A stretch of 64,000 nt of DNA from Candidatus Accumulibacter contiguus (GTDB lineage: Bacteria > Pseudomonadota > Gammaproteobacteria > Burkholderiales > Rhodocyclaceae), in assembly GCF_012940005.1 (NCBI RefSeq), contig NZ_SPMX01000010.1, positions 1 through 64,000 on the forward strand, written 5' to 3'. Positions 45,160 through 64,000 of the stretch are shown here, piece by piece; position 1 is the stretch's first letter, and the number at the start of each line of letters is the position of its first letter. The notes beneath the pieces were generated by a model. That model did no database searches and was not told the origin of the DNA. It was given only the letters and a program-made list of their open reading frames with translations. The position numbers were made by a program, and so were the translations under genes.

Positions 45160-45816
45160 TTAATGGGCGAGATCGCCGAGCAGCGTGTCGACGCCGATCT
45201 GGGAGTGCACGCCGATCTGCATCGTGGTGTGCGCGGGATGGTAGTCATAGGCGGTGTGGGCCGGCTTCTCGAGGTCGATCAGGGCCCGGATGATCTGGTT
45301 CTGGCGCTGCAGGGTGGCCGGATCGGGATTGGGGATCGTCACGTTCACCCGGAAGTAATGCGGCGCGCTGCCGTTGATCTGGGTATCGACGCCGACGGTC
45401 GAATGCTCGCCGATCTGGAAGATGGTGTTCTCGCCTTCCGAGATTTCCGGATCCAGGCCCGTATAGATCTTCAACAGCTCGATCAGATTCTGCTTCGTGC
45501 CACGGCGGCGATAGAGCGGGACGATGTTGGCGAGGAATTCCCTCTGCTGGTTTTCCCGCCAGTCGGCGCGCAGCCCGAGCGCCACCCAGCCGGCCAGCCA
45601 GTCGAGGAATTCGCGTGGCGTCGCCAGTGGATCGAAAAGCTGGGGTATGGCGGCGATGATCTCTTCCAGCCCGCGCCTGGGCTCGCTATCGGCGCCATGC
45701 AGACCCGTCAGGACCTGCTCGAAGGCGAGCAGAAAACGACCCAGCAACGGGTCTTCGGAGAAGATGGCCGGCAGATGCTCTAGGTAGCTGCTACTTTGTT
45801 CTTCGCCAATCGCCAT
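45160..45816 (-). CDS. eCIS baseplate wedge protein, P2 gpI-like
   Basis: 218 residues. SSSYLEHLPAIFSEDPLLGR and FDPLATPREFLDWLAGWVAL with YRRRGTKQNLIELLKIYTG match the phage tail protein I-like domain found in contractile systems. It would sit at the outer baseplate and carry the fibre. The C-terminal part repeats a short motif (GEHSTVGVDTQING and GVHSQIGVDTLLG). The fibre gene follows after 20 bp, consistent with that role. Confidence 0.8.
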   Translation of the reverse strand: MAIGEEQSSSYLEHLPAIFSEDPLLGRFLLAFEQVLTGLHGADSEPRRGLEEIIAAIPQLFDPLATPREFLDWLAGWVALGLRADWRENQQREFLANIVPLYRRRGTKQNLIELLKIYTGLDPEISEGENTIFQIGEHSTVGVDTQINGSAPHYFRVNVTIPNPDPATLQRQNQIIRALIDLEKPAHTAYDYHPAHTTMQIGVHSQIGVDTLLGDLAH

Positions 45817-45827
45817 CGCATCTTCTC

Positions 45828-46721
45828 CTAGATCGCTTCAACTTTCACTGCCAGCGTCCGTGCGCTGACCAGTTCGTGCGGCTTGACCGTCAGTCCGATC
45901 TGCTTGCCTTGCGCGTTGTGGATCAGGCGCGCGGAATCGTTGCTGGCCAGCGTGACCTCGGTCACATAATCGACTCCCGGCAATTGATCGAGCAGCTGGT
46001 AGATTTCGGAGATGAAGACATTGCGCCCGAAAGGCCAGCCGGTCTGTTGCTCCCCGCCGCACAACGGATCGAGAAAAGCACGCAGGGTGGTGATCACTCG
46101 CGGCAGCAGTTCGCTCGGGTCGACATCGGGTAGCGCCACCACTGTGGCCTCGATATCCACCTCCACCCGCTGCGGGCCGACGACATGCACAAAAGTCGTC
46201 AGCAGCCGGCGCGGCTCCAGGTAGGCTTCGACGGCCTCGAGCACCGGGGTCAGGTCGCCGTCGTGACGGGGCACGACGATCACGCTGACATGGCCCGGCT
46301 GCTCGGCTTCGAAGTCGATCAGCGCGTTGCGCCGCGGCAGGCAGCGAACGCGGGCGACGCGTGCATCGGCCTCGAGCGCCAGCGCTTCGAAGTCATCGCA
46401 GGAGACCGCGCGTTCCTGGCGCCTGAGCGCCTGGACGCTGGTGCGGATATCGGTCGCCAGGGCTGCCGGGGTCATTCCCGAAGGCTTCCAGTCCTTGCCG
46501 TTGAGCAGCTTCAGAAAAGTACGGAGGTTGTCGTCGCTCACCCGGTTCAGCCGGTAAATCAGCATCTCGGACAACCAGGCGAACAGCTCGATCAGGGTGA
46601 TGCCGGGGTCGGACGGATTGTGGTTGGTCCATTCCGGCGCGTAGCCGGGGATCAGCGTGCGCGCTTCCTCGACCAGGTCGGCATAGCGGCGATCGTCGAG
46701 ATCGGGGAGGGTCAGCGGCAT
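45828..46721 (-). CDS. eCIS baseplate J/gp47-family protein, short form
   Basis: 297 residues. DPGITLIELFAWLSEMLIYRL and GRNVFISEIYQLLDQLPGVD are classic baseplate J (T4 gp6-like) blocks; the segment RRQERAVSCDDFEALALEA is the usual insertion-free core. Compared with its neighbour of 1017 residues it lacks the long central insertions. It probably forms one of two non-equivalent wedge subunits. Starts 5 bp after the larger J gene stop. Confidence 0.85.
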   Translation of the reverse strand: MPLTLPDLDDRRYADLVEEARTLIPGYAPEWTNHNPSDPGITLIELFAWLSEMLIYRLNRVSDDNLRTFLKLLNGKDWKPSGMTPAALATDIRTSVQALRRQERAVSCDDFEALALEADARVARVRCLPRRNALIDFEAEQPGHVSVIVVPRHDGDLTPVLEAVEAYLEPRRLLTTFVHVVGPQRVEVDIEATVVALPDVDPSELLPRVITTLRAFLDPLCGGEQQTGWPFGRNVFISEIYQLLDQLPGVDYVTEVTLASNDSARLIHNAQGKQIGLTVKPHELVSARTLAVKVEAI

Positions 46722-46726
46722 GGCGA

Positions 46727-49700: not shown

Positions 49701-49780
49701 TAAATGGCCAGCAACTCGCGCAGTTGTCCGGAAACGGCGGCAGCTGTACGCGGATCGATCGGCGGAGCGGTCTTGCTCAT
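46727..49780 (-). CDS. eCIS large baseplate J-type protein (Afp11-like)
   Basis: 1017 residues. N-terminal block DPLGTALIGIFSRFAEIILH RLNQ aligns with J-type wedges; the middle holds repeated beta-sandwich insertions with WDYWNGQAW and WAYWNGMQW motifs, and the C-terminal J core is LRHRQRAVSIEDYQDLAVL ... GRKPHPSDLYALLEAVPGVD. Afp11-like proteins build the baseplate wedge. The repeated W-YWNG segments look like duplicated Ig-like domains. Its ATG shares one base with the stop of the gp25 gene. Confidence 0.85.
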   Translation of the reverse strand: MSKTAPPIDPRTAAAVSGQLRELLAIYAPDWHEQYTDPATGQIRSDPLGTALIGIFSRFAEIILHRLNQVPDKNLLAFLDLLGEARLPPQPARVPLTFSLAPGSIADAIVPSGTQVASPPAEGENEPVLFETAGELVVGAAQLSCLFVREPEADRYADYSPWLSTPAAIAIPVFAGNRALEHVLYLGDDALFGRSDLQELRLTFELTSENPAPDPRTVQWEIWDGKEGCPLAPVDQTEALTRNGDVVLTAGLRAFPIAEQRLADQTSRWLRCRLLTPITPADALQAGRVRASHLPEIASLSAQVTIGATGLAADVAFANQLPVDLGKDFLPFGDKPRFGDTLYLARGRAFAEAGSTITLRIELTNPSDAKKPPIPATRASENLELAWDYWNGQAWVTPDDMVDDTANLTQSGTITCKLGKPPQPKTVNGLEEYWLRVRLNAGDYGQEARYEPVDPEHPEHGYRFIPATFAAPSIRRLSIDYLLTRTTPLAALLTYNDFVYTAVPGTPFQPFQATSEPRPTVYLGFTLPAARRVFPNRKLSLYLASAGLKYGEASASPPAAHSADPLRLAWAYWNGMQWSDLKVQDGSENFTRSGLLEWLAPSDFSSRAEFARQAYWLRARWESGDYPLAPHLSRVLFNTTMALQAVTVRNEILGSSDGSENQRFRTIRTPLLAGERLEVRERELPATAEQTLIQQASGDAAITFTEGAGGRPPEIWVRWLPVADFYGSGPRDRHYVLDALSGEIRFGNGRNGLIPPAGTGNVRLAHYRTGGGVVGNRPANAVVQLKTTVPYVDQVSNLEPALGGAEAETLESLRQRAPRALRHRQRAVSIEDYQDLAVLASPAVARARCVPLHDLARDPAALRSWPGTVSLIVVPRTRDAKPLPSLTLLDEVRRYLDQRRIPTADLVVVGPEYLRVDVSVEVALLSMEGASAVESEVAQTLARFLHPLTGGLDRNGWDFGRKPHPSDLYALLEAVPGVDHLRSLQVSESEERPGALASGRFLVYSGIHDIRLTFAET

Positions 49781-50175
49781 CAGCTCGTGCTCCTGTCCAG
49801 ATAGAAGGGATAGACCAGGTTGAAGGCGTTGTTGGTGGCGCGTACCTCGTAGTCGATGCTGATCAGCAGCAGCTCGCCGCCTGCGGCCGCCTGCACCTGG
49901 ATGTCGAGCACATCGATACGCGGCTCGAACAGCAGCAGGGCCTGGCGGATGGCCTGCGTTACCCTGCCGGCGGTGGAGGCGCTATTGATCTCGAAAACCA
50001 GGTCGTAAATGCCGCAGCCGAAATCCGGACGCATCACGCGTTCACCCTTGGCCGTGCCCAGGATGATCCAGATCGACTGACGCACGCTCTCCTCGTACTC
50101 GGCGTGGTTGAAGAAGCCAAGTTCATCGAGTGTGAGGGGGAATCCCCAACCAACGCCGAGAAATGGTTTCGACAT
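49780..50175 (-). CDS. eCIS GPW/gp25 baseplate protein (Afp9-like)
   Basis: 131 residues. FFNHAEYEESVRQSIWIILG followed by GERVMRPDFGCGIYDLVFE is the gp25/GPW lysozyme-like-fold signature, including the EIxExR-type region that nucleates sheath assembly. It joins the sheath to the baseplate. Length is normal for the family. GGAAGG precedes the ATG; stop overlaps the next gene by one base (TGATG). Confidence 0.9.
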   Translation of the reverse strand: MSKPFLGVGWGFPLTLDELGFFNHAEYEESVRQSIWIILGTAKGERVMRPDFGCGIYDLVFEINSASTAGRVTQAIRQALLLFEPRIDVLDIQVQAAAGGELLLISIDYEVRATNNAFNLVYPFYLDRSTS

Positions 50176-50183
50176 AAGCCTTC

Positions 50184-50579
50184 CTAACCGATGAACACCG
50201 TACCCACGGCGATTACCTGGCCAGCCGGCAAGTCCGCGGGATCGTTGCAGGTGGTCGCGGGGTCACCGTTGCGCGCGGCCATCTTGCCGTTGATTTTCAC
50301 TGTCGGGCTGCCGATCCGGATGCTTGCCTGGTTGCCCGGAGGTTTCTGAAAAGCGGTTCCGGGTGGTGTCGGCAGATGGGGAGGCGTGTTGTCGGCCGTG
50401 CTGTCGACGGTCGCCGCCGGCTTCCCCTGGATGTTGACGTCGCTGCTCAGATTGCCGTTGATGATGCCGGTAAAAGGGTGCGGCAAAGGCGTCGGCAGCG
50501 GTGGCGTACCCGGGACGATGACGATATGCGTGTCGGTGGCGACGATCCGGTCGCCCTGTTTGGCGGCAGGTTGGCCCAT
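50184..50579 (-). CDS. eCIS PAAR-like spike tip (Afp10-like)
   Basis: 131 residues. Starts MGQPAAKQGDRIVATDTHIV and ends in a repeat of short beta turns with IRIGSPTVKINGKMAARNGD, the pattern of PAAR proteins that cap the spike; Asp/His/Cys residues (HIVIV, GDPATTC) could hold the structural metal ion. A Pro-rich middle (PGTPPLPTPLPHP) is usual for PAAR in these systems. Directly downstream of the gpV-like spike gene (3 bp). Confidence 0.8.
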   Translation of the reverse strand: MGQPAAKQGDRIVATDTHIVIVPGTPPLPTPLPHPFTGIINGNLSSDVNIQGKPAATVDSTADNTPPHLPTPPGTAFQKPPGNQASIRIGSPTVKINGKMAARNGDPATTCNDPADLPAGQVIAVGTVFIG

Positions 50580-50582
50580 GAT

Positions 50583-51218
50583 TCAGTTGATATTGACGGT
50601 TGCACCCTGGATGTTCAGCGTTGCGCTGGCTGTTACGTCGATTCCCGCCCCAGCTTCGAGGCTGGCGTCGGCGGAGGACTTGATTTCCACCTTCCGGGCC
50701 TCGAGCTTGATCGTTCCCTGTGGCGCCAACAAGCTGATGTCCTGCTCGCTGGTGATGGTGATCGTGTTGGTCGCGGTGTCGAAGACGATGCTGTTCTTTT
50801 CGCTCTTGTCGATGATTTCGATCTTTTCCTTGCCGTCCTCGTCGTTGAGACGAACCAGATGGCCGCTGCGCGATCGGATCAGGCGCAAGGCATTCTTGCC
50901 GTCGGCGTTGTCGGCCGGCGGTTTGTCCTTGCCGTTCCACAGGCCGCCGAGGACATAGGGAAAACGCAGGTCGCCCTGTTCGAAGGCGACCAGCACCTCA
51001 TCGTCCACTTCCGGCAGGAAGTACCAGCCGCGACCGCTGCCGGCCATCGGCGTGGCGATCCTCGCCCAGGCGCTCTCGTCGGCGTCGCTCAGCCAGGGGA
51101 ACCTGAGCTTGACCCGTCCGAGCCCGTCGGGGTCCTGATTGTTGGTTACCACGCCAAACACCACGCCGGCGATGCGGGTGGCGTCGCCATGCTCGACAAG
51201 CAGGTTGAAGAAGCTCAC
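50583..51218 (-). CDS. eCIS spike protein, gpV/gp5-like OB-fold and beta-helix
   Basis: 211 residues from GTG 51218, which overlaps the upstream stop (GTGA). OB-fold core GVVFGVVTNNQDPDGLGRVK followed by RFPWLSDADESAWARIATPM is typical of baseplate assembly V/VgrG middle domains. The C-terminal 80 residues are a beta-helix of short repeats (TITITSEQDISLLAPQGTIK). In Afp this part is fused to the gpD-like half as Afp8; here the two are separate genes. Confidence 0.88.
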   Translation of the reverse strand: MSFFNLLVEHGDATRIAGVVFGVVTNNQDPDGLGRVKLRFPWLSDADESAWARIATPMAGSGRGWYFLPEVDDEVLVAFEQGDLRFPYVLGGLWNGKDKPPADNADGKNALRLIRSRSGHLVRLNDEDGKEKIEIIDKSEKNSIVFDTATNTITITSEQDISLLAPQGTIKLEARKVEIKSSADASLEAGAGIDVTASATLNIQGATVNIN

Positions 51219-52288
51219 GTCGCGTTCCTCCTGACGGTGAAACGGGTCAGATAACCCTGGTGGGGCGTATAGCCATGGTTCGCCGAGACGACATAGTACG
51301 GGCCGCTGAAACGTTGACCGAGCCCGTCGATCCTGATGACTGCGCCGGCCCGCAAGTCGGTGCGTCCCCGGCACGCTCCTTCACCCTCGATCAGTTCCAG
51401 TACGCCGCGATTGAAGCGGGCCTTGGCCAGTTGATCGGCTTCGGCCTGGGTGGCCAGCGGCTGCCGGCTGATCAATCCGACGGCCGCGCCGAAGGCGCTG
51501 TTCGCGAGAGCCGCGCCAGTCTGCCGGCCGCCCATCTTCGAGACTTCTGCCCCGGCCCTGGCCTGACCGATGATCTCCTGCTTGTCCTTGACGTTCCAGC
51601 CGCGTACCTCGACTTCGCTGACCTGGCCCACCGCAGAAAGCCGTGGGTAGAACTCCAGCAGGTCGTCGTTCAGCGTCAGGGTCATGATTTCGCTCGCCGC
51701 GTTGGCTACCGGCCGGAAAGACAGCGTCTTGTCATCGACGCTGACTTCGTATTCGATCCGGCGAGCGCGCTCCTGAAGAAACGCCAGATCGCTCTGGCCG
51801 GCCTGGAGCACGTAGTCATGGACGACACGGCTGTCCTCGGTCTGCGCAGTCAGCCCCGCTTCGCCGGCGATTTGCGCGGCGATATCGCTGTCTTTCTGCT
51901 GCAAGAAGGTACGCACCTTGCGACCCCGTTGCAGGCGGTGGCGGCGGTCATAACCGCGCACCGTCAGATGAGGCAGGCGGTCGGCCGCGAATTCGAGTTC
52001 CAGGGCGGTAATCTCGCCCTTGATCAGACTGGCCAGATCGTCCACATAGCCCAGCCTGACGTCGGCCACCTGGCCGACGGCAAACAGATTCCGGTCGTCG
52101 ATCCAGGCCAGGAGCTGATCGTCGTGTTCCGATCCGGCCAGTTCAATGGCGAACATGCTCGGCAGCTCGACGCTGTCGTCGACCTCGACAGCGATGACGT
52201 GCGTTGCGACAGCCTTGGACAGGGGAGATCCGTTGACGGCGATCGCGAAATCGGCGATCAGCGGGCTGCGCGGATTGGCGACGGGCAT
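51215..52288 (-). CDS. eCIS hub protein, late control D (gpD)-like
   Basis: 357 residues. DVRLGYVDDLASLIKGEITA and TVRGYDRRHRLQRGRKVRTF with later VEVRGWNVKDKQEIIGQA match phage gpD/VgrG N-terminal barrels, forming the trimeric hub. LSAVGQVSEVEVRGW is the second barrel. It contacts the LysM tube adaptor encoded 12 bp upstream and the spike encoded downstream. Confidence 0.85.
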   Translation of the reverse strand: MPVANPRSPLIADFAIAVNGSPLSKAVATHVIAVEVDDSVELPSMFAIELAGSEHDDQLLAWIDDRNLFAVGQVADVRLGYVDDLASLIKGEITALELEFAADRLPHLTVRGYDRRHRLQRGRKVRTFLQQKDSDIAAQIAGEAGLTAQTEDSRVVHDYVLQAGQSDLAFLQERARRIEYEVSVDDKTLSFRPVANAASEIMTLTLNDDLLEFYPRLSAVGQVSEVEVRGWNVKDKQEIIGQARAGAEVSKMGGRQTGAALANSAFGAAVGLISRQPLATQAEADQLAKARFNRGVLELIEGEGACRGRTDLRAGAVIRIDGLGQRFSGPYYVVSANHGYTPHQGYLTRFTVRRNAT

Positions 52289-52300
52289 CGTTGCTCTTCC

Positions 52301-52990
52301 TCAGCCGCGCCTGGGAATCGTCAGTGTTCGACCGACGTCCAGATGGCGCGGATCGTTCAGGTTGTTCGCCTCGGCGATCAGTCGCCACTGCGCCGGGTCA
52401 CGATAGATTTCGGCAGCGATGGCACTCAGGGTGTCGCCGCGCTTGAGCTGTCGAGTGGTGAACTCCGGGTCGGTCTGGCGCTGGTCGAGTGCCGGGTCGA
52501 GGAACTCGGTGACCGTGATCGTCAGGGTGGCCCGCAAGGGTTTGCCGTCGCTGCTGAAAAACGTGAAGCGCTGGGCGAGGTTGCTGAGCACGCCGGTGAA
52601 AGGAAAATCGGAGTGGGCCGGCGGCGCGGCACCCCAGGTGATTTCGACCGCCGGTGGGCGCTGCAGCTCCTTCTGGATGCGTGTCAGTTCGACCACCTTG
52701 TTGGTCTCCTTGCGCACGTCGCCGCTGACGACGTCGTTGACCGGTTCGGTCACGTCGTAGAACAGCTCCAGATTCAACAACCGGCTGCCACCGCCAGCAA
52801 AGAACAGGGTCGGCGCATTCACCATGCGATTGGTCCGGGCGCTCGTCGGGCCGGTTGCACTGAGGGAATTCCAGGTGACTGACTTGCTGATCGAGTAGGT
52901 GTTCGGGTTGAAAAGCACCGCGAACCTCTTGTTCGTTATGGATTGGCCGCTTTTGTCGAGGGGAGTGATCGTCAGCTTGCTCAGTTCCAT
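52301..52990 (-). CDS. eCIS tube-baseplate adaptor with LysM domain (Afp7-like)
   Basis: 229 residues. The first 170 are the CIS tube adaptor (FAVLFNPNTYSISKSVTWN; LNLELFYDVTEPVNDVVSGD). The C-terminal 45 are a LysM domain (RQLKRGDTLSAIAAEIYRDP), which in T4 gp53-like adaptors binds other baseplate proteins rather than peptidoglycan. The start overlaps the previous frame by 10 bp. Confidence 0.85.
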   Translation of the reverse strand: MELSKLTITPLDKSGQSITNKRFAVLFNPNTYSISKSVTWNSLSATGPTSARTNRMVNAPTLFFAGGGSRLLNLELFYDVTEPVNDVVSGDVRKETNKVVELTRIQKELQRPPAVEITWGAAPPAHSDFPFTGVLSNLAQRFTFFSSDGKPLRATLTITVTEFLDPALDQRQTDPEFTTRQLKRGDTLSAIAAEIYRDPAQWRLIAEANNLNDPRHLDVGRTLTIPRRG

Positions 52991-54644: not shown

Positions 54645-55268
54645 CTATGAAAGTCGCGAGCGACTCACGAATCTCCCCTCCCCACTCGCGGGGGGAGGGG
54701 TTGGGGGGAGAGGGAAACGGTCATGACTTTCATCATCGGGGGTGTCTTGCAAAGTCATGACCGTTTGTCCGAACTCGCCGGCGGTACGACTCGCCTGCTG
54801 CCGTGACTGCTGCACATGGATTACCCCAGCCGGTCGAGTCGTGCGCTGTGCCAGGCGGTCAGTCAGCGGGCCGGCGTTTACCGTGCTCGCTGCCGGGGAA
54901 TAAGGGGCGAGGTCAATCTTGCCGCTGGAATCCGGGTTTGCCTGCCGGCGGATGTCAAACCGGGCTGCCGCGGTTCCCGGCAATTCGGCTCCGCTACTCG
55001 CCAGGGTCACCGGGAAAGCACGGGCCGTCCGGTAAACGAAACCGGTGTGGCCACCTCCCGGTGGTATCTCGCCAGCACCGGCACGGGCCAGCAGTCGCTG
55101 CAGCAACGGAAAGCGCTGTCCAGCCCACACGGCCGTGCGGGCGTAATGCTGCTGCGGCCAGCGCACGTCAATCATTCCGAGTTCCTCGCTGCTGCGGGCG
55201 GTCGTGGCGTTCAGCCAGCCATCCTGACGGCAGAGGAATGTTCGCATCGGCCGCGGGCGCGCATCCAT
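54645..55268 (-). CDS. eCIS protein of unknown function, 5' part of a split gene
   Basis: 207 residues. The start ATG shares one base with the stop of the tube gene (TGATG), so it is translationally coupled. The first 70 residues look folded and conserved (MRTFLCRQDGWLNATTARSS; GQRFPLLQRLLARAG), then the sequence turns Pro/Ala/Arg/Gln-rich. The last 40 codons are non-native: they run into repeat A and encode its hairpins (ending RFVSRSRLS). The genuine part ends near GEFGQ at 54765, a codon boundary; see the 551-residue frame downstream. No family recognised. Confidence 0.55.
   Translation of the reverse strand: MDARPRPMRTFLCRQDGWLNATTARSSEELGMIDVRWPQQHYARTAVWAGQRFPLLQRLLARAGAGEIPPGGGHTGFVYRTARAFPVTLASSGAELPGTAAARFDIRRQANPDSSGKIDLAPYSPAASTVNAGPLTDRLAQRTTRPAGVIHVQQSRQQASRTAGEFGQTVMTLQDTPDDESHDRFPLPPTPPPASGEGRFVSRSRLS
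54648..54764 (-). repeat. 118-bp triple-hairpin repeat, copy A
   Basis: 117 bp. Aligns end to end with copies B and C, with a few differences. It contains AGTCGC/GCGACT, a C-run/G-run hairpin and an inverted pair ACGGTCATGA/TCATGACCGT. It sits between two frames that would be one gene without it. Same orientation as B and C relative to transcription. Confidence 0.85.
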
Positions 55269-55822
55269 CAGAATAGCCCTTCGGAAAACGTCAACGAACC
55301 GCCACTGATGCGCTCAGCAACGACGCCGGCCACGACGTTTGCCAGTCTCGGCCGGCTGAGCCCACGGTGGGCAAGTTCCACGCTTTCAATGGCGACCCCG
55401 CCCGAACTGGCCACCAGCGAGGGTCCGCTCCAGCGGAAGGGGAAGGCCTCCTTGAAGTCCCACCAGATGACCGGGATGCGCTGTTTGTTCAGCAGGTAGA
55501 TGGTGCCGTTCCGGCGTCTGATCCTGCCCTGTACGACATCCTGATGCCAGCCCCAGAGTCCATCGATTTGCGTCAGTCCGTGTTTGAGCAGCAGTGGCGG
55601 ATACTTCGTCGGTCCGGCAAAACGATGCATGTACTCATTGACGCCGCCTTCGCGATACTCGAAGGTTTCACTTTCCACTTGCAGGCCACTGCATTCCGAA
55701 AAGCCGCCGGCCAGGATCCCTTCGATCTCCACCAGGAAATTGAAGGCCTGGTAGGGGTCGACACGCACCCCCGACAAGTTGGTCGCCAGACTGAAGGCGG
55801 TGTTCAAACCCAGTTCAGGCAT
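55268..55822 (-). CDS. eCIS inner tube protein, gp19-like (Afp5-like)
   Basis: 184 residues. FLVEIEGILAGGFSECSGLQ, then VESETFEYREGGVNEYMHRF and GPTKYPPLLLKHGLT match the T4 gp19-like tube family, as in its paralogue at 56426-56860. It is about 40 residues longer at the C-terminus (SGGSLTFSEGLF), which fits an adaptor at the baseplate end of the tube. GAGGAG lies between the DUF6760 stop and this ATG. Confidence 0.88.
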   Translation of the reverse strand: MPELGLNTAFSLATNLSGVRVDPYQAFNFLVEIEGILAGGFSECSGLQVESETFEYREGGVNEYMHRFAGPTKYPPLLLKHGLTQIDGLWGWHQDVVQGRIRRRNGTIYLLNKQRIPVIWWDFKEAFPFRWSGPSLVASSGGVAIESVELAHRGLSRPRLANVVAGVVAERISGGSLTFSEGLF

Positions 55823-55837: not shown

Positions 55838-56014
55838 TTACCCGCTCTCGGACTGCTCGTTCAGGCGTCGATTGATCCTGGCGATCTCCGACACCCAACG
55901 GCGCCGTTCCAGGTGGTCGAGATCCATGATCTCGTGTTGCGGCCAGTGAAAATGAAATCCGATGTACGCTACCTCTTCATAGAGCCGCTCTACGGGGTAG
56001 CGCCAGACTCCCCC
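55838..56014 (-). CDS. DUF6760 frame, probably made by -1 frameshift
   Basis: The frame GVWRYPVERLYEEVAYIGFH, then FHWPQHEIMDLDHLERRRWV and a tail SEIARINRRLNEQSESG reads as the small DUF6760 protein of eCIS loci, and stops at TAA 55838. Between the preceding in-frame TGA and the conserved YPVERLYEEV there is no ATG, GTG, TTG or CTG. The frame overlaps the end of the chaperone gene in the -1 register, immediately after a run of five G (56010-56014). A -1 slip there would give chaperone-DUF6760 fusion. As a stand-alone ORF it would have to start at an internal ATG in the middle of the domain. Confidence 0.7.
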   Translation of the reverse strand, partial: GGVWRYPVERLYEEVAYIGFHFHWPQHEIMDLDHLERRRWVSEIARINRRLNEQSESG

Positions 56015-56367
56015 TGCTCGCTCAACTCCACTTCAAATTCCTTCTCACAGTACGGGCACTGGGTATGCACCCGGTTGCTGCCGCTGTCGTTCAGGCGACG
56101 ATAGAGATTCTGCAAGTATCCCAGATCGGCGGCGAAAAAACCCTCGACGATCTTGGGATTGATCTGCTCGAGGGTTCCCAGGCGAATGATGACGCGCGCC
56201 AACAGGATGATCAGCAGGTACGCCGGGTTGTTATGCACCCGTGGATCCTTGAGCGGTGCGATTTCATCAAAAGCCGTGGCCAGACGCATCACACCTTCCT
56301 TGTGCAGGTTGCCTTCGCTGTCGATATAGCCCATCGGCAGGGTGAATGGGAACTCGGTCTGCAGCAT
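55990..56367 (-). CDS. eCIS T4-type baseplate hub assembly chaperone-like protein
   Basis: 125 residues from ATG 56367, with AGGA six bases upstream; the tandem ATG at 56370 is possible. LQTEFPFTLPMGYIDSEGNL, then HKEGVMRLATAFDEIAPLKD and INPKIVEGFFAADLGYLQNL match the T4 baseplate hub assembly chaperone-like family found in eCIS. The C-terminus has one CPYC pair. The last codons carry a G-run in the overlap with DUF6760. The same place in phage operons is occupied by tail assembly chaperone genes. Confidence 0.8.
   Translation of the reverse strand: MLQTEFPFTLPMGYIDSEGNLHKEGVMRLATAFDEIAPLKDPRVHNNPAYLLIILLARVIIRLGTLEQINPKIVEGFFAADLGYLQNLYRRLNDSGSNRVHTQCPYCEKEFEVELSEQGESGATP
56006..56018 (-). 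other. Putative -1 ribosomal frameshift site
   Basis: On the coding strand the zero frame reads CAG GGG GAG TCT. The Gly codon lies in a G5 run (56010-56014), so the peptidyl-tRNA can re-pair on GGG one base back. The -1 frame then continues GGA GTC TGG CGC TAC directly into DUF6760. The zero-frame stop (TAG) lies 18 bases downstream, at 55990. It is not a canonical X-XXY-YYZ heptamer, so efficiency is uncertain. No 3' stem was assessed quantitatively. Confidence 0.5.
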
Positions 56368-56425
56368 CATCTTTCCTGTCTCGTAGAAAATCATGAATGA
56401 TCACATCAGACCTCAGGTCTGGCTG

Positions 56426-56860
56426 CTAGGCTTTCTTCAACTCCTCGTGCGTGATTTCCAGAGCCTCGATGGCGACGGCATTGTTGGTCGAATTGAATGT
56501 CGGACCGGTCCATTTGGAAGGCCAGGCACCGACGAAATTCCAGCGCAGCTTTTCCGCGCCGGTCTCGTCCAGCAGAATGATCGAACCGTTCCGCCGCTCG
56601 GCCTTGCCATCGATTACCGTCTGACGCCATTTCCACAATTCGTCCGAATCGGTGATGCCACGCTTGAGCGTGACGGGGACGTATTTGTTCAAGCCGGTCA
56701 GCTTGCGGACATGATTGGGGTCGGTCCCTTCGCGATAGTCGACCGGATCGGTGCTGACATCCAGGCCGCCACACTCCTGAAAACCGGCCTGGGTGATGCC
56801 ATCGATTTCGACCATGAAATTGAAGCCCCGATAGGGATCGGTACGTGTTCCGGTAGGCAT
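56426..56860 (-). CDS. eCIS main inner tube protein, gp19-like (Afp1-like)
   Basis: 144 residues. FMVEIDGITQAGFQECGGLD, then VSTDPVDYREGTDPNHVRKL and VPVTLKRGITDSDELWKW match gp19-like tube proteins of eCIS and phages; length is typical. Likely forms the bulk of the tube inside the sheath. AAGGAG lies five bases before the ATG. It follows copy B of the hairpin repeat, downstream of the sheath genes. Confidence 0.9.
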   Translation of the reverse strand: MPTGTRTDPYRGFNFMVEIDGITQAGFQECGGLDVSTDPVDYREGTDPNHVRKLTGLNKYVPVTLKRGITDSDELWKWRQTVIDGKAERRNGSIILLDETGAEKLRWNFVGAWPSKWTGPTFNSTNNAVAIEALEITHEELKKA

Positions 56861-56926: not shown

Positions 56927-57044
56927 TGCAAGTCGCGTATGCGACTCACGAATCTCCCCTCCCCCCTCGCGGGGGGAGGGGTCGGGGGAGAGGGAAACGG
57001 TCATGATTTTCATGATCGGGGGTGCCTGGAAAAGTCATGACCGT
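56927..57044 (-). repeat. 118-bp triple-hairpin repeat, copy B
   Basis: Aligned to copies A and C. It overlaps the 3' end of the second sheath gene: the sheath stop TGA (57035) is within the repeat's GGTCATGA. The three inverted pairs are present. TTAATG precedes the core, as in copy C. Confidence 0.88.
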
Positions 57045-58174
57045 TCGACGGAGTCCGTCGCACCCGCCCGGTGGATGATGCGCACCACGATGAACTCGGC
57101 CGGTGCGGTGGCGGCCAGACCGATTTCGGTTACCACCTGCCCAACCTCGCGGGTCTCCGGCGGATTGGTATCGGCATCGCACTTGACGTAAAACCCTTCG
57201 GCCGGCGTTTGCCCCTGCAAAGCCCCGGCTCGCCACAATCCGGTCAGGTACGGATGCAGCTCGCGCTGAATCCGTACCCATAAACGCGGATCGTTGGGCT
57301 CGAAAGCCGCCCAGGTCATGTTCCGGTCGACCCAGCGGCCAACAGTCAGGAACAGCCGTCGGACATTGATATGGCGCCAGGCGGCATCGCGATTCAGCGT
57401 GCGCGCGCCCCAGACGCGGATGCCACGCCCCGGAAACGCGCGCAGGCAGTTCACGCCTTCCGGGTTGAGTCGATCCTGCAACGAGTTGTCGATCGCCACT
57501 TCCAGATTCAGGGCATCGCGTACTTCCTCGTTGGCCGGCGCCTTGAATACGCCGACCCGGGCATCGGTACGCGCAAAGATCCCGGCCACATGCCCGCAAG
57601 GCGGGACCCATTGGTTCAGCGCAGTTTGCAGCCAGGGAAAATAGAGGGCTCCGTTCAGGGGTTCCGTCAATCCTTGCGTGATGCCTCGGCGCTGATCGAG
57701 CACACTGTCTACCGAACTGTTCGGCGCCGTATCGAGAATTGCCAGGCGATCGCCGTGCTCGGCGCAGTGGCTCAGCATGGCGTGTTGCACCTCGTTGATG
57801 GCGGAAGGGTCGGGCAGGAGTACGGCGTCCGGCATCGCCACCAGGTCGACGTCGATGAGCGCTCCCAGCTTGGCAAGAGCCTTTTTCAGGGCGGCCAGCC
57901 GATCGGCAGCGGCGGGATCGGCAAGTGCCACATAACACCGGCGACCACCATTGGCAAAGAAACCCGTGATTGCAGCTCCGAGATAGCCGTCTGGAGGGCA
58001 CGGCAGGGCACCGACGAGTTCTTCCATGCGATGCAACAGAATCGGAGCCGGCACAGCCGCTCCGGTGACCGCCGCCAGGCCGACGAAACCAGCGATGCCG
58101 GTCGGCAGGCCGGTCGCTGGCTGGAGAAAGACGTCCTCGCGGTAGACACCAGGAGTCTGGCAGGTGGCGGCCAT
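57035..58174 (-). CDS. eCIS contractile sheath protein, second copy
   Basis: 379 residues. QTPGVYREDVF and TGIAGFVGLAAVTGA start, FFANGGRRCYVA, GVNCLRAFPGRGIRVWGART and the end EIGLAATAPAEFIVVRI match phage/Afp sheath proteins. It is shorter than the upstream sheath (416) mainly in the middle domain. Afp uses three sheath paralogues; here two are visible. The final residues (VERS) and stop are supplied by repeat B. 9 bp after the first sheath gene. Confidence 0.9.
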   Translation of the reverse strand: MAATCQTPGVYREDVFLQPATGLPTGIAGFVGLAAVTGAAVPAPILLHRMEELVGALPCPPDGYLGAAITGFFANGGRRCYVALADPAAADRLAALKKALAKLGALIDVDLVAMPDAVLLPDPSAINEVQHAMLSHCAEHGDRLAILDTAPNSSVDSVLDQRRGITQGLTEPLNGALYFPWLQTALNQWVPPCGHVAGIFARTDARVGVFKAPANEEVRDALNLEVAIDNSLQDRLNPEGVNCLRAFPGRGIRVWGARTLNRDAAWRHINVRRLFLTVGRWVDRNMTWAAFEPNDPRLWVRIQRELHPYLTGLWRAGALQGQTPAEGFYVKCDADTNPPETREVGQVVTEIGLAATAPAEFIVVRIIHRAGATDSVERS

Positions 58175-58183
58175 CCGTGTCGC

Positions 58184-59434
58184 CTACTTGCCGGGTGCAA
58201 CGAACTGACTGATGCGGAAGATGACGAACTCCGCCGGCCGCACGATCGATACTCCGATCTCGGTGACTACCTGACCCAATTCGCGCAACTCTGGCGGGTT
58301 GGTTTCCGCATCGCACTTGACATAGAAAGCCTCCTGCGCGGTGGTGCCGAACAGTGCTCCCGAACGCCAGACGTTGGTGAGAAAGGCCGTTACGTTGCGA
58401 TTGATTTTCTGCCACAGCGCGGGATTGTTGGGTTCGAACACCGCCCATTGCAGACCCTCATCGATCGACTCGCGCAGGAACAACAGGGTGCGGCGCACAT
58501 TGATGTACTTCAGATCGGCGTTGGCATCGCCGCCGACGGTGCGCGCCCCCCAGGCAAAGATGTTGTCATTGAGCACGCGGATGCAATTGACCCCTTTCGG
58601 GTTCAAACCGTCCTGCTCCGCCTTGCTCAGGGGTTGCGTGACATCGAGCGCGCCGAGGATGACCTCGTTGGCCGGGGCTTTGTGCACGCCCCGCAGGTTG
58701 TCGACGCGTGCGTAGATGCCCGCCAGGTGACCGCTGGGGGGCACACCGATCACGCCATCACTGCCCTGCAGTCTGGCAGCGGGATCGAAAACCTTGATCC
58801 ACGGGAAATACCAGGCCGCGTAATCGGTTTTCTTCGGCATCACGCCGGGATTGGAGTCAGCGGGAATCCGGGTCAGCGTCGTCAAATCGCTGACGCTCTC
58901 CGGTCCGTCGAGAATCGCAAAGCGATCGGATGTGCGCAGGCAGTGCGTCACCAGCTTGTCACGGCTGGCGTCATCGGTCATGCCGGGTGCGGCGACCAGA
59001 GCGATTTCGTCGATCGCCGCGAAGGCCTTGAGGGCATCGTCGAAGTCGGTCGCCGAGAGGACCCGTACCACGTAACAGCGGCTACCACCGTTGTTGAAGA
59101 AGCCATAGACCGCATGTGCGAGGTTACGATGACCGCTGTCGATCGCCGGACCGGGGTCCGTAGTCGCTGCCACCGCCTCGCTGCCGATCAGGTCGCCGAA
59201 GGCCTTGGTGAATTGTGTCCAACTGGTGATCAGCCTGGGAGTACCGGCAGGTGTCGGCAGGCTGAAGTCCACGAACTTGATTCCTGCGGGCGCCGCCTGG
59301 TCTTTGGCAAGGAGGTGAATCTTGTCCGGTACGACGCCGACGAAACCGGCCGTGCTGGTACTGACGCCAGCGATGGCCTTGATCGCCGACGGGACTTCTT
59401 CAACATAGACACCGGGTGACAGGTATTGTGACAT
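58184..59434 (-). CDS. eCIS contractile sheath protein, first copy
   Basis: 416 residues. LSPGVYVEEVPSAIKAIAGV, TAGFVGVVPDKIH, FFNNGGSRCYVVRVL, GVNCIRVLNDNIFAWGART and EIGVSIVRPAEFVIFRI show the full sheath family order. AAGGAG eight bases before the ATG is good, and it lies at the edge of repeat C. Likely the major sheath subunit, wrapping the tube and contracting on firing. Confidence 0.92.
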   Translation of the reverse strand: MSQYLSPGVYVEEVPSAIKAIAGVSTSTAGFVGVVPDKIHLLAKDQAAPAGIKFVDFSLPTPAGTPRLITSWTQFTKAFGDLIGSEAVAATTDPGPAIDSGHRNLAHAVYGFFNNGGSRCYVVRVLSATDFDDALKAFAAIDEIALVAAPGMTDDASRDKLVTHCLRTSDRFAILDGPESVSDLTTLTRIPADSNPGVMPKKTDYAAWYFPWIKVFDPAARLQGSDGVIGVPPSGHLAGIYARVDNLRGVHKAPANEVILGALDVTQPLSKAEQDGLNPKGVNCIRVLNDNIFAWGARTVGGDANADLKYINVRRTLLFLRESIDEGLQWAVFEPNNPALWQKINRNVTAFLTNVWRSGALFGTTAQEAFYVKCDAETNPPELRELGQVVTEIGVSIVRPAEFVIFRISQFVAPGK

Positions 59435-59586: not shown

Positions 59587-60441
59587 CTAAATTTGCACGT
59601 CGTAGTTGTTTCCAGCGCTGACCGGAACGGTGATGCTGGTCGTCATCTGGGTTGCGCCGGCCTGTACTCGCAAGTCAAAGGTGCCCGGCTCCGGTACGCT
59701 CAGTGTATACCGGCCTGCCGCGTCGGTCACCGTCTCGACACCCGTCCGGAGCAGCGTCACCTGGGCGTGCGCTACAGGAAGACTGCTGGCGTCGGTAACC
59801 CTCCCGGCGACGCGCAGGAGGACTTGCCGGGTAGCCGGCTTCAGGTCTTCGCCTGCAGCGTTCGTGCGTTCCCCGAGATCGACCTGCCCGGTGATCGCGA
59901 GCGGTTCCGTGATCGGTGCAAACCTCTCCATTGCCAGTGTTGCCGTGACGGTGATCGACGGACGCAGCTTGTTGCCGATGGCCGTCCAGAAATCGGCGGG
60001 ATCCTTCAAGCCGTCGGTTTGCGCCGCCAGCATCGGTAACGGCGGTTGCTGTCCCAGCAGCTGGCCTTGCAGGAACGCGGCGGGAATCGTCGGATAGCGG
60101 GCGAGCACCTGCAGCGTCTGGCTCAGCAGGCGATGCTCCTGCAACGGTAGCTCGCTGCCGCCGACCGGCCAGGCGGTGACCAGATACGCACAGGCGACCC
60201 GCAATGGCGGCGGATGGATGATCGCCTGACCGCTGTGGCGTTCGAGCAAAGGCTCGCTGCTGCGCAGTTCGAGATTTTCGCGGATGTCGTACAAGAACAG
60301 GTTGACCGTCGTCTGCGCCGGGTTGAAGGACTCCGCCGGCCGGTCAAAGACGACCTGCGCCGCCGCAAGTTCCGGGTAAGCGCTTGCCAGGGCTGGATCG
60401 TCCAGCAGAGAGCGCAGTGTCAGACTCAGGTCGCGAATCAT
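59587..60441 (-). CDS. eCIS DUF4255 cap-like protein with C-terminal beta-sandwich
   Basis: 284 residues. N-terminal 190 are DUF4255 (TTVNLFLYDIRENLELRSSE; IHPPPLRVACAYLVTAWPVG), the Afp16-like protein that terminates and caps the tube. The C-terminal 90 are a carboxypeptidase-regulatory-like domain (AGRVTDASSLPVAHAQVTLL; TDAAGRYTLSVPEPGTFDLR), not part of a minimal Afp16. The extra beta-sandwich may anchor the particle or bind cell surface or other particles. Confidence 0.85.
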   Translation of the reverse strand: MIRDLSLTLRSLLDDPALASAYPELAAAQVVFDRPAESFNPAQTTVNLFLYDIRENLELRSSEPLLERHSGQAIIHPPPLRVACAYLVTAWPVGGSELPLQEHRLLSQTLQVLARYPTIPAAFLQGQLLGQQPPLPMLAAQTDGLKDPADFWTAIGNKLRPSITVTATLAMERFAPITEPLAITGQVDLGERTNAAGEDLKPATRQVLLRVAGRVTDASSLPVAHAQVTLLRTGVETVTDAAGRYTLSVPEPGTFDLRVQAGATQMTTSITVPVSAGNNYDVQI

Positions 60442-60459
60442 GCTTCAGGAATATCCCGT

Positions 60460-62139
60460 CTATTCCGCTGGTGAACTCTGCCGTATCTCCAGGATGACCA
60501 CCCGGTGTCTTTCGCTATTATCAACGTCCGGAACACCTTCCTCGCGCCAAATTTCTTCGCCATAGACACGCGGCAAGAAGTTGGCGCGTGGCAATAGATC
60601 CCTGATTCTACTCAGGATGTAATGAGCGCGCGCGCGCGCCAACTCCCGGTTGCGCTCGAAGTTGCCAAGAGGACTTGCATAGCCGTCAACGAAACCGGAG
60701 AGATCGCTTCCCCCTTCGCCATATGGATCAAGATTCATGAGAAAAGTGGTCAAACGTATGCTTTCTTCTTCTCGTGTCGAGGGATTCGTCCCTGGTGTCG
60801 CCTGACCGGTGTTGAAATAGTAAGCGTGGTGTCGTATCACGGTGATCGGTCCGAAGGTAATCTCCGGCGGTGGTGCGGGCGTTTCGATGTCAACGACGAA
60901 TCCGCGCCCGGCGGTCAGGGTCGAGCCGGTAGACGTTCCCCATGAGCGGGAGTATCCGGCGCTGACGTCTACACCAATACCGAACGGCTCAAAGCTGCCG
61001 CCAAATTCCACCGGGATCTCATTGCCCACGCTCGTCGACTCGGTCGAGCCAAGCGTCAGAGCCAGTCCAACGCTGGTCTCCCCCTGAACCGGCGTGACGC
61101 TGAGAGACCAGGGCGCATCCCCGGCGCCACCCGTCAATCCGTGCGTCGGGGCATAAAGTCTTATCGCGCCACGTTCATCCACCGCAACCCGCCATGTGTA
61201 ATCGACGTCCCAGGAGTTGGTGTTGTTGAGTATGGGGTCGTCGCGCTCAACAGTGACCGAGCCTGCAATTTGCAGAGAGGCATTGGTGTTCAAAGGGATC
61301 GAAATACTTTCTCGTTGACTGCTGGAAAAAGTACGTTCCATCGTTCTTTGTCCACCGACCGACAGCGAGACGCTGAGGTTGATCTCCATGTTGGAGTCGT
61401 CCATGGATCGCGGCACCTCACCCCAGCCTGCCAGCGGCACGGTCAAACGCTGTAGGCGTGGTATCTTGCCAGCAACGGGCGGCGGCACCAGCTCACCCGG
61501 TATCGGCGCGTGGCTCGCCGTGTCTGGCCTGGACTGTTCCTCCTGTTGCATGACCGCGCGCGCGACCCGGTCCGCCTCCTGTTCGCAGGGGTCGTCCGGT
61601 TGACTGACGGAGAGTTCAGCCTGAATCGTGCTGCCGCCTTGCTGCAGCACATGCGTCAGTTCATGAGCCAATGTCTCCCGTCCAGCCGAACTCTGCGGGT
61701 TGTACTCTCCCTGACCAAAGAAGATGTCCTTGCCGGTGGTAAAGGCACGTGCGCTCAGCGCTCGATTGAGCGTGTCAGCTTCTGCGTTGGTGTGCACCTG
61801 CACGCCGCTGAAGTCGGCGCCGAAAGCGGATTCCATGCGCGTGCGCACGCCGCTTTCCAGCGGCTGTCCGCGGCCAAGGGAACGCTGGATGGCTTGTTCC
61901 ACGCCTGGAGCAGGCACAGACTCAGCATTGGCCTGTGTACGCTGGGCCAGGAGCCGCTGCACAAAGCGATTGCCGTGCGTGCGCTGGAGATTCTGCAACG
62001 CACCGGCCTCTTGCAGCGGCCGTGCTACCGGGTCAGGTTGCAGCGGGCGCTGCCTGACCTGTGCCGTCGTCGAGATTTCGCCATTGCCCTCGTGAACAGT
62101 CCTTGTCCTCACTGCCGAGCCCCCCGATGCTGACATCAT
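60460..62139 (-). CDS. eCIS DUF4157 protein with OmpA-like C-terminus
   Basis: 559 residues. DUF4157 (about residues 94-168) contains FSGVQVHTNAEADTLNRALS and HELTH (H159, E160, H163), a gluzincin-type zinc site. It is found in many eCIS loci, often as or beside an effector. The middle 250 residues are beta-rich. The end (VDGYASPLGNFERNRELARA; RAHYILSRI) resembles an OmpA-type peptidoglycan-binding domain. It could be a cargo with protease activity, a processing factor or an envelope anchor. The two tandem ATGs at 62139 and 62136 have no clear ribosome site. Confidence 0.8.
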   Translation of the reverse strand: MMSASGGSAVRTRTVHEGNGEISTTAQVRQRPLQPDPVARPLQEAGALQNLQRTHGNRFVQRLLAQRTQANAESVPAPGVEQAIQRSLGRGQPLESGVRTRMESAFGADFSGVQVHTNAEADTLNRALSARAFTTGKDIFFGQGEYNPQSSAGRETLAHELTHVLQQGGSTIQAELSVSQPDDPCEQEADRVARAVMQQEEQSRPDTASHAPIPGELVPPPVAGKIPRLQRLTVPLAGWGEVPRSMDDSNMEINLSVSLSVGGQRTMERTFSSSQRESISIPLNTNASLQIAGSVTVERDDPILNNTNSWDVDYTWRVAVDERGAIRLYAPTHGLTGGAGDAPWSLSVTPVQGETSVGLALTLGSTESTSVGNEIPVEFGGSFEPFGIGVDVSAGYSRSWGTSTGSTLTAGRGFVVDIETPAPPPEITFGPITVIRHHAYYFNTGQATPGTNPSTREEESIRLTTFLMNLDPYGEGGSDLSGFVDGYASPLGNFERNRELARARAHYILSRIRDLLPRANFLPRVYGEEIWREEGVPDVDNSERHRVVILEIRQSSPAE

Positions 62140-62148
62140 TGACGCGTT

Positions 62149-64000
62149 TCACTTCACTTCATTCCACGTTCGCCCAATTTTCTGATGCTCCCGCCGTGCC
62201 GCCCGCAGCAGATGCGACATCCCGATCGTCTCTCCGGCGTCGGCAGCGTAAAACGCCGCCGTCAGCGCGATGTTCCTGATGTTCCCCCCGGCCAGCTTGA
62301 CCTCGCGAGCCAGCACCGCCAAATCCAAATCCTCCGCCAGCGGCGCCTCGGGCGGAAACATGACTTCCCAAATGCGGCGCCGTTGCAGCTCGTCCGGGAA
62401 CGGGAACTCGACGATGGCATGCATTCGGCGGACGAAGGCATCGTCCATGTGACTGCGCAGATTGGTCGCCAGGATGGCCACTCCTTCGTATTCTTCCATC
62501 TTCTGCAGCAAATAGCCCACTTCGATGTTGGCGTAGCGGTCGTGCGCGTCCCTGACTTCGGAACGTTTGCCGAACAAGGCATCGGCTTCATCGAAGAAGA
62601 GGATTGCATGGGTGTTCTGGGCGGCAGTAAAGATACGTTCGAGGTTCTTCTCGGTCTCGCCGATGTACTTGCTGACGACCTGGGAGAGATCGATCTTGTA
62701 TAGCGTTAAAGATAGTTCATTGGCGATGACATCGCCAGCCATTGTTTTGCCGGTGCCCGGCGGACCCGAGAACAGGACGTTCAGCCCTTTGCCGAGAGCA
62801 GGCTTGCGGCCGAAACCCCATTGATCGTAGACGGTATGGCGGTGCTTGGCCTGCTGACAGATTTCGTGGAGCTGAGCCAGTTCATCGGCCGGTAAGACCA
62901 GATCGTCCCAGGTGTATCTGGGCGTGATCTTGCGTGCCAGATCGTGCAGATGGTGATCGGATTGGGCGCGGGCGGCGGCAAACAGTTCGGCGAGCGTCGG
63001 CTGGCTGTTCGGCGTTTCGTCGGGTCGCGTCGCTGTCAGGGCGCCACGCCAACGCGCCAGATTGACCGCGCCGGCAACGGTTCCGGAGATCTGTTCGGGC
63101 GTCAACTGCAGGCGCCCGGCCAGGGCCTCCAGCTCGCTCGCTGCCAGCGCGATGCCGCTCGCTGCCAGGCAGGTCTGCAGGTACGCCCGTCGTTGCCAGA
63201 AATCGATCGCCGGGAAGCGGATCGCCTGGATTGTCCTGGTCGGGTCGGCGGCGGGCCGCCAGGCCTGCGAACCGGCCAGAATGACGACGCCTGCATGCCT
63301 GCCGATCCTGTTCAGCAGATCCTGATACCGCCGGGCGTGCTCACCGGCCAGCAGCGTGTCGAAGCCGGTGCAATACAGCATGGCCTCCTGGAGGAGGGCA
63401 GTGCGGAACAGCACGGTCAGCACCGCTGCGAATTCCTCGACGGCAATCGGTGTGCGCGCCAGGTCGGCAACCAGCAGAGGCGCCCCGAGCAGACCGGCCA
63501 GCGCCTCGGCAAGCCCGCGTTTGCCGACGCCTGGTGGTCCCTGCAGGTAGAGTCTGAGCGATTGCTGCCTTTCCCTGGCCTGGATCGCCATTCCCGTGAT
63601 GGCCTTCTTCAGCTCGCTGCCGACCGGCAGGTCGGCGAAAGTGGCCGTCGGTTCAGCCCATTCGCAGCACGATGTCAGACGGGCGTCGAGGGTGTCGTCA
63701 GCCAACAGGTAGGCGATGATCTGTCCATCCAGCTTGAGATACTGCGCCAGCAGCGGCGGCCGGAGTTGCTGAGGATCAGCGAGCAGGGAAAGCAGGGCAT
63801 GGCGGCACAGAGGGGCTGCGGCGGCAACATGGGCGCGCCTGGCCAGCTTGTCCTCGGGCGAAGTGCACAGCAGATTGAAAGCCAGATCGATGCTCGGTCG
63901 ACGACGCGTCACATCATCCTGCAGGTAGGCATAGAGCCGTTCGTAACGCAGATCCACTTCCGGCGCCAGGGCGACCAGAAGCACGTCCAGGTCGAACGAC
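62149..64000 (-). CDS. eCIS AAA+ ATPase (Afp15-like), 5' end off the window
   Basis: At least 617 residues; the frame is open to the right edge. Two ATPase modules: the first has a degenerate Walker A (GPPGVGKRG), the second an intact one (GPPGTGKT), Walker B ILFFDEADALFG, sensor and arginine finger (RRMHAIVEFPFPDELQRRR). Afp15-like ATPases are needed for particle assembly, probably with sheath or terminator proteins. Most upstream gene visible in this minus-strand operon. Confidence 0.9.
   Translation of the reverse strand, partial: SFDLDVLLVALAPEVDLRYERLYAYLQDDVTRRRPSIDLAFNLLCTSPEDKLARRAHVAAAAPLCRHALLSLLADPQQLRPPLLAQYLKLDGQIIAYLLADDTLDARLTSCCEWAEPTATFADLPVGSELKKAITGMAIQARERQQSLRLYLQGPPGVGKRGLAEALAGLLGAPLLVADLARTPIAVEEFAAVLTVLFRTALLQEAMLYCTGFDTLLAGEHARRYQDLLNRIGRHAGVVILAGSQAWRPAADPTRTIQAIRFPAIDFWQRRAYLQTCLAASGIALAASELEALAGRLQLTPEQISGTVAGAVNLARWRGALTATRPDETPNSQPTLAELFAAARAQSDHHLHDLARKITPRYTWDDLVLPADELAQLHEICQQAKHRHTVYDQWGFGRKPALGKGLNVLFSGPPGTGKTMAGDVIANELSLTLYKIDLSQVVSKYIGETEKNLERIFTAAQNTHAILFFDEADALFGKRSEVRDAHDRYANIEVGYLLQKMEEYEGVAILATNLRSHMDDAFVRRMHAIVEFPFPDELQRRRIWEVMFPPEAPLAEDLDLAVLAREVKLAGGNIRNIALTAAFYAADAGETIGMSHLLRAARREHQKIGRTWNEVK

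Follow-up and report, generated by a model that had tools for sequence, protein, structure and literature searches.

How is a conserved protein domain translated from a reading frame that offers it no start codon? This question is raised by a locus of Candidatus Accumulibacter contiguus, in which a DUF6760 domain lies behind, and in the -1 frame of, a gene resembling the tail assembly chaperones (TACs) of phages, within a cluster that is, as judged from its family matches, an extracellular contractile injection system (eCIS). The window analyzed was a stretch of 64,000 nucleotides (nt), positions 1 to 64,000 of contig NZ_SPMX01000010.1 in assembly GCF_012940005.1 (Table 1). We propose, with a probability of about 0.9, that programmed -1 ribosomal frameshifting in eCIS makes two products, the chaperone and a chaperone-DUF6760 fusion. 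The same proposal had been made from the letters of the locus before any relatives were compared (hereafter, the sequence-only reading), and it is supported by the frame relation, the in-phase run of five G (G5), the small number of start codons and the stem-loop, all of which are conserved across phyla.

In the window, the DUF6760 frame is open on the minus strand from 56032, behind an in-frame TGA (56035-56033), to a TAA at 55840-55838, and matches PF20546 with 57.6 bits (cut-off 27), as expected for the intact, normally ending domain that the sequence-only reading described. The codons from that TGA to the YPVERLY motif (AGT GGA GTT GAG CGA GCA GGG GGA GTC TGG CGC TAC CCC GTA GAG CGG CTC TAT) include no ATG, GTG, TTG, CTG, ATT, ATC or ATA, and so zero starts of translation table 11, common or rare. 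The other part of the initial argument, that the G5 permits an exact -1 entry into DUF6760 from the overlapping chaperone-like gene, was verified from the reading frames: one base back, the ribosome would read GGG GGA GTC TGG CGC TAC CCC. The site, GGGGGAG, falls short of a full X XXY YYZ heptamer. A sequencing indel in the G run was looked for as an explanation; it is unlikely, since the letters of the overlap are identical at locus L006 of G010, a genome from the same genus assembled as one contig, and the relatives exclude it. The nearest named relatives of the locus are Accumulibacter genomes, and the start positions in the nearest relatives make ATG 56370 or 56367 a likelier start of the chaperone-like gene than the one tabulated.

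Table 1. Positions in the window of the overlap and of the surrounding eCIS genes.
Feature	Position	Strand	Family match
TAC-like gene, frame 0, 134 codons, with C-terminal CPYC zinc ribbon	55990..56394	-	
Frame-0 stop TAG of the chaperone, within the stem-loop region	55990..55992	-	
DUF6760 domain, -1 frame, from GGA codon after slip to TAA	55838..56011	-	PF20546
Slippery site GGGGGAG (G5 56010-56014); frame 0 ..CAG GGG GAG, -1 frame GGG GGA	56008..56014	-	
GTGGAG, Shine-Dalgarno-like, 11 nt upstream of G run; possible upstream stimulator	56026..56031	-	
Stem-loop, 12 nt after first G of slip site; arms 56002-55996 (CGCTACC) and 55973-55967 (GGTAGCG)	55967..56002	-	
Inner tube protein, gp19-like, directly upstream of chaperone-like gene	56426..56860	-	PF06841, TIGR02241
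Second tube-type protein, directly downstream of DUF6760	55268..55822	-	PF06841; best NCBIfam NF053770 (CIS5), under its cut-off
Sheath proteins (two)	57035..59434	-	PF04984, PF17482
Remaining eCIS: LysM tube protein, GPD hub, gpV spike, PAAR tip, gp25, two baseplate J, P2 gpI-like	45160..52990	-	Pfam
Pvc16-type protein, eCIS_core protein, AAA ATPase	59587..63984	-	Pfam

Relatives of the locus were collected with both halves of the overlap. A search of genome contigs with the chaperone alignment (A1) gave 427 pattern matches and 356 relatives; the top 80 (L015-L094) were retained. A search of viral contigs gave eight more (L095-L102). DUF6760 was found behind the chaperone in 87 of the 88 loci of this first survey, L102 being the exception, and its frame was -1 every time. 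No phase was imposed on the search for the G run in these loci. A run of at least five G is present in 86 of the 87; its phase is NNG GGG G in 84, the other two have a G6 that includes this phase, and all 86 runs permit the same slip. Run length is exactly five in 73 of the 86 and reaches seven, and the 87th locus, L032, has a G4 and ATGATG. Searches with DUF6760 itself were added to escape the choice of loci by the chaperone. These gave a match in 10 of 61 genomes of relatives (eight above the cut-off), seven of 398 genomes of the same phylum (three above the cut-off), 19 of 296 Actinomycetota genomes (the phylum of L078) and 15 of 146 Cyanobacteriota genomes (the phylum of L020; 16 loci), as well as 29 matches in 22 genomes of known loci. 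With 31 duplicates merged and the weak matches L009, L010, L012, L013, L014 and L102 (E > 1e-8) dropped, the final count comprised 128 distinct loci.

Among those 128 loci, DUF6760 is in the chaperone's -1 frame in 126 and the in-phase G5 is present in 119. The arrangement of the window is thus more than chance, since GGG makes up only 190 of the 919 other glycine codons in these genes (20.7%). The G5 loci, many of which are contigs of metagenome-assembled genomes, are spread over bacteria and archaea, in 14 named phyla (Pseudomonadota, Cyanobacteriota, Acidobacteriota, Chloroflexota, Thermodesulfobacteriota, Myxococcota, Actinomycetota, Gemmatimonadota, Planctomycetota, Nitrospirota, Bacillota, Caldifarciminota, Methanobacteriota and Hydrothermarchaeota) plus SAR324. 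All 16 cyanobacterial loci have it; a single genome, that of Mastigocoleus testarum (G467), holds four DUF6760 loci (L109, L125, L130 and L131), each with a G5 and two of them identical over the compared stretch. In the slip site, GGG is followed by GAA in 61 of the 119 loci, by GAG in 46 and by GGG or GGA in 12. The frame-0 stop follows 7 or 10 nt past the first G in 105 of them and 22 nt past it in the window. Val-Glu is encoded 11 nt upstream of the run in 68 of the 119 and is spelled GTGGAG in 37 of these, against 15.8 expected from codon usage, which makes a Shine-Dalgarno (SD)-like stimulator plausible, although not a general one.

The nine loci outside the G5 count are of several kinds. 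L001 has GGGAAAG; five (L032, L143, L145, L148 and L149) have an ATG and no G5; L138 has a G4 and no start codon; in L146, DUF6760 is a separate gene in the same frame; and in L144 the chaperone was not recognized. L144 was considered as a locus without a chaperone, an interpretation that was dropped upon finding an in-phase G6, accompanied by a GTG and an ATG, and a gene in front that is in the same frame relation but is unrecognized by the chaperone profile. Of the 19 actinobacterial loci, 12 have a recognized chaperone and an in-phase G5, one has the G4 (L138), five have neither run, and the last is L144. Nine later loci (L165-L173) were kept outside the 128-locus count, and six of them have an in-phase run of five or six G. 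Haloferax L167 (L167:2986-3782), from a more distant eCIS, has an in-phase GGGAAAC and, for DUF6760, an ATG, and by eye no DUF6760-like -1 frame was seen in Deinococcus L170 or Treponema L171. The Deinococcus locus, another more distant eCIS, has a small ATGA-coupled open reading frame (ORF) unlike DUF6760 (L170:2995-3560).

The stem-loop behind the slip site was not part of the sequence-only reading. Behind the slip, two mutually complementary stretches, GGCTACCCC and GAGGAGGTAGCC, are conserved even at synonymous sites. Alignment A2 comprises the window and, of the 86 G-run loci, the 75 that are distinct and have their Tyr codon at the usual spacing of 15 nt; two duplicates and nine loci with other spacing were left out. 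Ten pairs were tested in A2: 93.6% of the cells are paired versus 89.2% in shuffled alignments (0 of 500), and the covariation score is 0.155 versus 0.088 shuffled (0 of 500) and 0.025-0.140 with slid partners. The column pair 19-54 is GC in 42 of the 76 sequences, CG in 13, AU in six, UA in four, GU in one and unpaired in 10, and pair 24-49 is UA instead of CG in one locus (L092). By the measure of further pair types, A2 did not exceed its shuffles (425 of 500). RNAalifold, with no structure supplied, recovered nine of the ten tested pairs. Stability was compared with controls in which the protein was fixed and synonymous codons were drawn at each locus's own usage over a 45-nt stretch; the stem stretch has a mean z of -3.48, with p<=0.05 in 108 of the 119 loci (window z -1.96), versus z -0.14 (6/119) and -0.23 (12/119) in two later stretches of DUF6760. 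Against dinucleotide shuffles, a 65-nt stretch of the window has a z of -3.23. These results demonstrate that the stem-loop is under selection.

The best stem is in the common register in 94 of the 119 loci. In a Streptomyces-like clade of 11 G5 loci the old pairs are lost (1-4 of 10 left). Eight of the 11 pair 10-12 of 12 positions in a different register, two (L141 and L147) form other stems, and one (L132) lacks a good stem (z -0.39); in this clade the structure has been retained and the letters have not. Loci without the G5 divide: no stem signal was found in L143, L145, L146 and L148 (z -1.0 to +0.8) and a weak one in L149 (-1.6), whereas L032 (z -3.3) and L138 (z -2.5) retain it. There is also none in L001 (z -0.2) or L144. 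An RNA model (R1) built from A2 and run with stricter filters on 61 genomes gave seven places, all at the chaperone/DUF6760 pair. In the window it found the overlap alone above noise, with 69.5 bits, the next place having 10.7 bits (E 0.93).

Loci with a separate start codon, which would weigh against frameshifting, do exist. The sequence-only reading had asked whether eCIS loci share both the slippery site and the absence of a start; the site was conserved, but the absence of ATG, GTG and TTG between slip and YP motif extends to 90 of the 119 G5 loci (81 with a wider bound) and fails in 29. In addition, L144 and all of L032, L143, L145, L146, L148 and L149 offer DUF6760 a start of its own. 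On a tree of 127 chaperones, in which columns are few and many forks weak, the start-codon label (29 rows) changes 18 times and the lack of the G5 (eight rows) four times, the latter in one actinobacterial clade of five and singly in L032, L138 and L001. Loci with a separate start codon therefore look derived or redundant on the tree, and it is the slip site that is the constant part and the start codons that are the labile part. From their sequences, a few loci appear to use a start codon instead of the slip.

Termination-reinitiation would make use of such codons: ribosomes ending the chaperone would restart at a near-by codon of the -1 frame (ATG, GTG, TTG or a weak codon, for example ATA) and produce a free DUF6760 by coupled translation. 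Besides the loci just listed, overlaps of the form ATGA or GTGA, which occur in the Streptomyces-like clade and sporadically elsewhere, are consistent with it, as is RefSeq, in which DUF6760 is a separate gene in the annotated plasmids examined. Its start in Nostoc pn3 (L165:3369) is an ATA codon, and in Rhodococcus pWB1 (L166:3399) it is shortened, with a start behind the slip site and inside the domain, and frameshifted eCIS chaperones may often be misannotated. However, 33 of the 119 G5 loci, including the window, have no table-11 start of any kind in the stretch. An in-phase G5 followed at 12 nt by a stem-loop is not needed for reinitiation, yet both elements are constant where start codons are not, and in the actinobacterial clade that has no G5, four of the five loci have no stem signal either. 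We consider it an unlikely explanation of the arrangement.

Two other explanations were considered. An RNA polymerase adding a G within the run would produce the same fusion, as one extra G enters the same frame and the runs reach 7 G. A run of five G is short for polymerase slippage, however, and five is the exact length in most loci; the stem-loop at ribosome spacing, together with the SD-like stretch in part of the loci, is a mark of ribosomal shifting, and L001 has no G run at all. Transcriptional slippage is, accordingly, very improbable. The lack of a start codon in the window would also be seen if the two frames had once been one gene, with DUF6760 a decaying remnant, or if an assembly indel separated them. 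That the protein motifs of DUF6760 are conserved (alignment A4, 41 sequences), and that single-contig genomes and nearly all loci counted show the same frame relation, leaves this explanation with hardly any probability.

In the frameshifting that we propose, most ribosomes would translate the chaperone and end at its TAG. A share of them, slowed at GGGGGAG by the stem-loop and perhaps held by the upstream GTGGAG, would shift, with the tRNAs re-pairing one base back, the Gly tRNA from GGG to GGG and the Glu tRNA from GAG to GGA with a G-U pair. Shifted ribosomes would then read on into DUF6760, and the products would be a short chaperone and a fusion, the counterparts of lambda gpG/gpGT and P2 E/E+E'. 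If the roles known from lambda carry over, an assembly partner, either the tape measure or a tube initiator, would be kept soluble by the short form, and tube protein would be brought in by the DUF6760 end. The ratio of the two would then matter for assembly and, as the sequence-only reading suggested, might set chaperone dosage; neither form would stay in the finished particle. The frame relation, the slippery site, the selection on the stem-loop, the homology of DUF6760 to P2 E' and the chaperone-like profile and fold are computational results, and the occurrence of frameshifting, its rate and the chaperone role are inferred.

The parallel to P2 that the sequence-only reading drew can be taken further, as profile comparison indicates that DUF6760 is homologous to E', the -1 extension of the P2 protein, and the analogy is thus, for the extension part, one of descent. 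The DUF6760 and P2 E' profiles align with a probability of 91.3% in hhalign (E 9.4e-7), versus 0.1-0.3% in three control pairings; PF06528 is matched by 12 of 41 DUF6760 members (best E 0.0039); and phrog_10636 and phrog_1756 are matched by both DUF6760 and P2 E'. The predicted structure of DUF6760 has three helices, with a predicted local distance difference test score of 91.3. The chaperone profile matches phage tail assembly chaperones, to which the short form may be related and which its modeled fold also resembles, and gave no direct match to the chaperone part of P2. In the PDB, no chain matched the chaperone profile at E<=1, and DUF6760 had two weak matches (E 0.065 and 0.18), both to chains named sc-apCC-6. 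The chaperone model also matches T4-like baseplate hub assembly proteins (BFVD, Myoviridae sp. ctgXL3; T4 gp26, gp51, L191), the DUF6760 model matches a small protein of the same phage ctgXL3, and T4 gp26 aligns with the C-terminal part of the chaperone at 58.6% in hhalign. T4 hub assembly factors may, on these matches, be kin of the eCIS chaperones.

We lean toward the interpretation that what is classed as the DUF6760 gene family is no family of genes, being instead one half, the frameshifted one, of a single ancient chaperone. The cassette of GGGGGAR, stop and stem-loop would have come from a phage-tail ancestor of the eCIS lineage and been kept through its spread over bacteria and archaea, a few actinobacteria having switched to reinitiation. 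The presence in eCIS of a stem-loop that P2-type phages lack would then probably be due to the eCIS tail needing more of the fusion.

The family scan (Pfam/NCBIfam) covered selected ORFs between 45 and 64 kb in the window, where a single cluster holds matches to sheath, tube, LysM tube protein, hub, spike, PAAR, gp25, J, AAA ATPase, eCIS_core and Pvc16. The chaperone-like gene adjoins the tube gene, the order on the minus strand being a gp19-type tube gene, the chaperone-like ORF, the DUF6760 frame and a second gp19-type gene. No tape measure protein was identified in that scan. A 551-codon ORF at 52981-54636, which is Ala/Pro/Arg-rich and has no Pfam or NCBIfam match, sits within the cluster where a tape measure might be looked for. 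The cluster also contains an interspersed repeat of ~113 nt with a G/C-rich palindrome, whose two copies, ~2280 nt apart, lie behind the second tube region (54660-54772) and between the sheath and first tube genes (56941-57052) and are 96% alike over 48 nt and 85% over 82 nt.

eCIS are being engineered as protein delivery devices, and the assembly of their tubes is little understood. If our proposal is correct, the two-product chaperone would be a missing assembly factor in many eCIS clusters, and the dosage of TAC and TAC-DUF6760 a handle on tube assembly. Few programmed frameshift signals of cellular genomes would be as widely distributed as this one. Gene annotation would mislabel or truncate the chaperone-DUF6760 product, and a heterologous cluster that had been codon-optimized would lose the signal unnoticed. 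A large natural experiment would also be at hand, in which one frameshift signal has ~120 variants across the tree and has been lost independently. We found no report of frameshifting in eCIS in searches of an open-access library without preprints, and the accessible part of a paper on the Streptomyces contractile injection system (PMC10020575) does not contain the word "frameshift".

Frameshifted tail chaperones are already known in phages; the eCIS form is set apart as new by the conservation of its stem-loop and by its spread across bacteria and archaea. The eCIS locus L001 has, in matching phase, GGGAAAG, which is lambda's own slippery heptamer. According to the available portion of one study, a low-level -1 frameshift in lambda makes the two chaperones gpG and gpGT in a ratio (~30 to 1) needed for tail assembly; both bind the tape measure protein, binding of the tube protein falls to the T part, and neither chaperone is present in the mature virion (PMC5009743). 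Unlike lambda, eCIS otherwise have another slippery site, a conserved stem-loop and a host-encoded injection machine rather than a phage. The commonest eCIS site, GGGGGAA, is the "fivetwo" motif of ~1000 tail assembly chaperone frameshift sites in actinophages of the SEA-PHAGES collection, all in phage genes, where, in the text accessible, the slip is explained by a G-U pair of the second tRNA (PMC10885494). Frameshifting of 6% and 7% is given for two HK97-like chaperone genes in the accessible text of the GeneTack study (PMC3711429). The "DUF6760 family protein" of RefSeq is the same PF20546 domain, although we read it as a frameshift extension that in most lineages is no gene of its own. The signal of E. 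coli dnaX belongs to another gene with an A-run site, and its frameshift product is the shorter one, whereas in eCIS it would be the longer. The two types of signal have in common a slippery run, an upstream SD-like stretch and a downstream hairpin, a likeness drawn partly from the accessible text of PMC3711429 and otherwise from general knowledge. Another close system is that of phage P2, whose E/E+E' genes adjoin those of sheath and tube and have an annotated -1 frameshift into the homolog of DUF6760. P2 and its relatives differ in having a T6 run (in seven of the nine phage loci examined, <=50 nt from the E stop) instead of GGGGGAR, and no stem-loop behind it (z -1.53 to +1.04 in the seven), whereas in eCIS the stem has been conserved.
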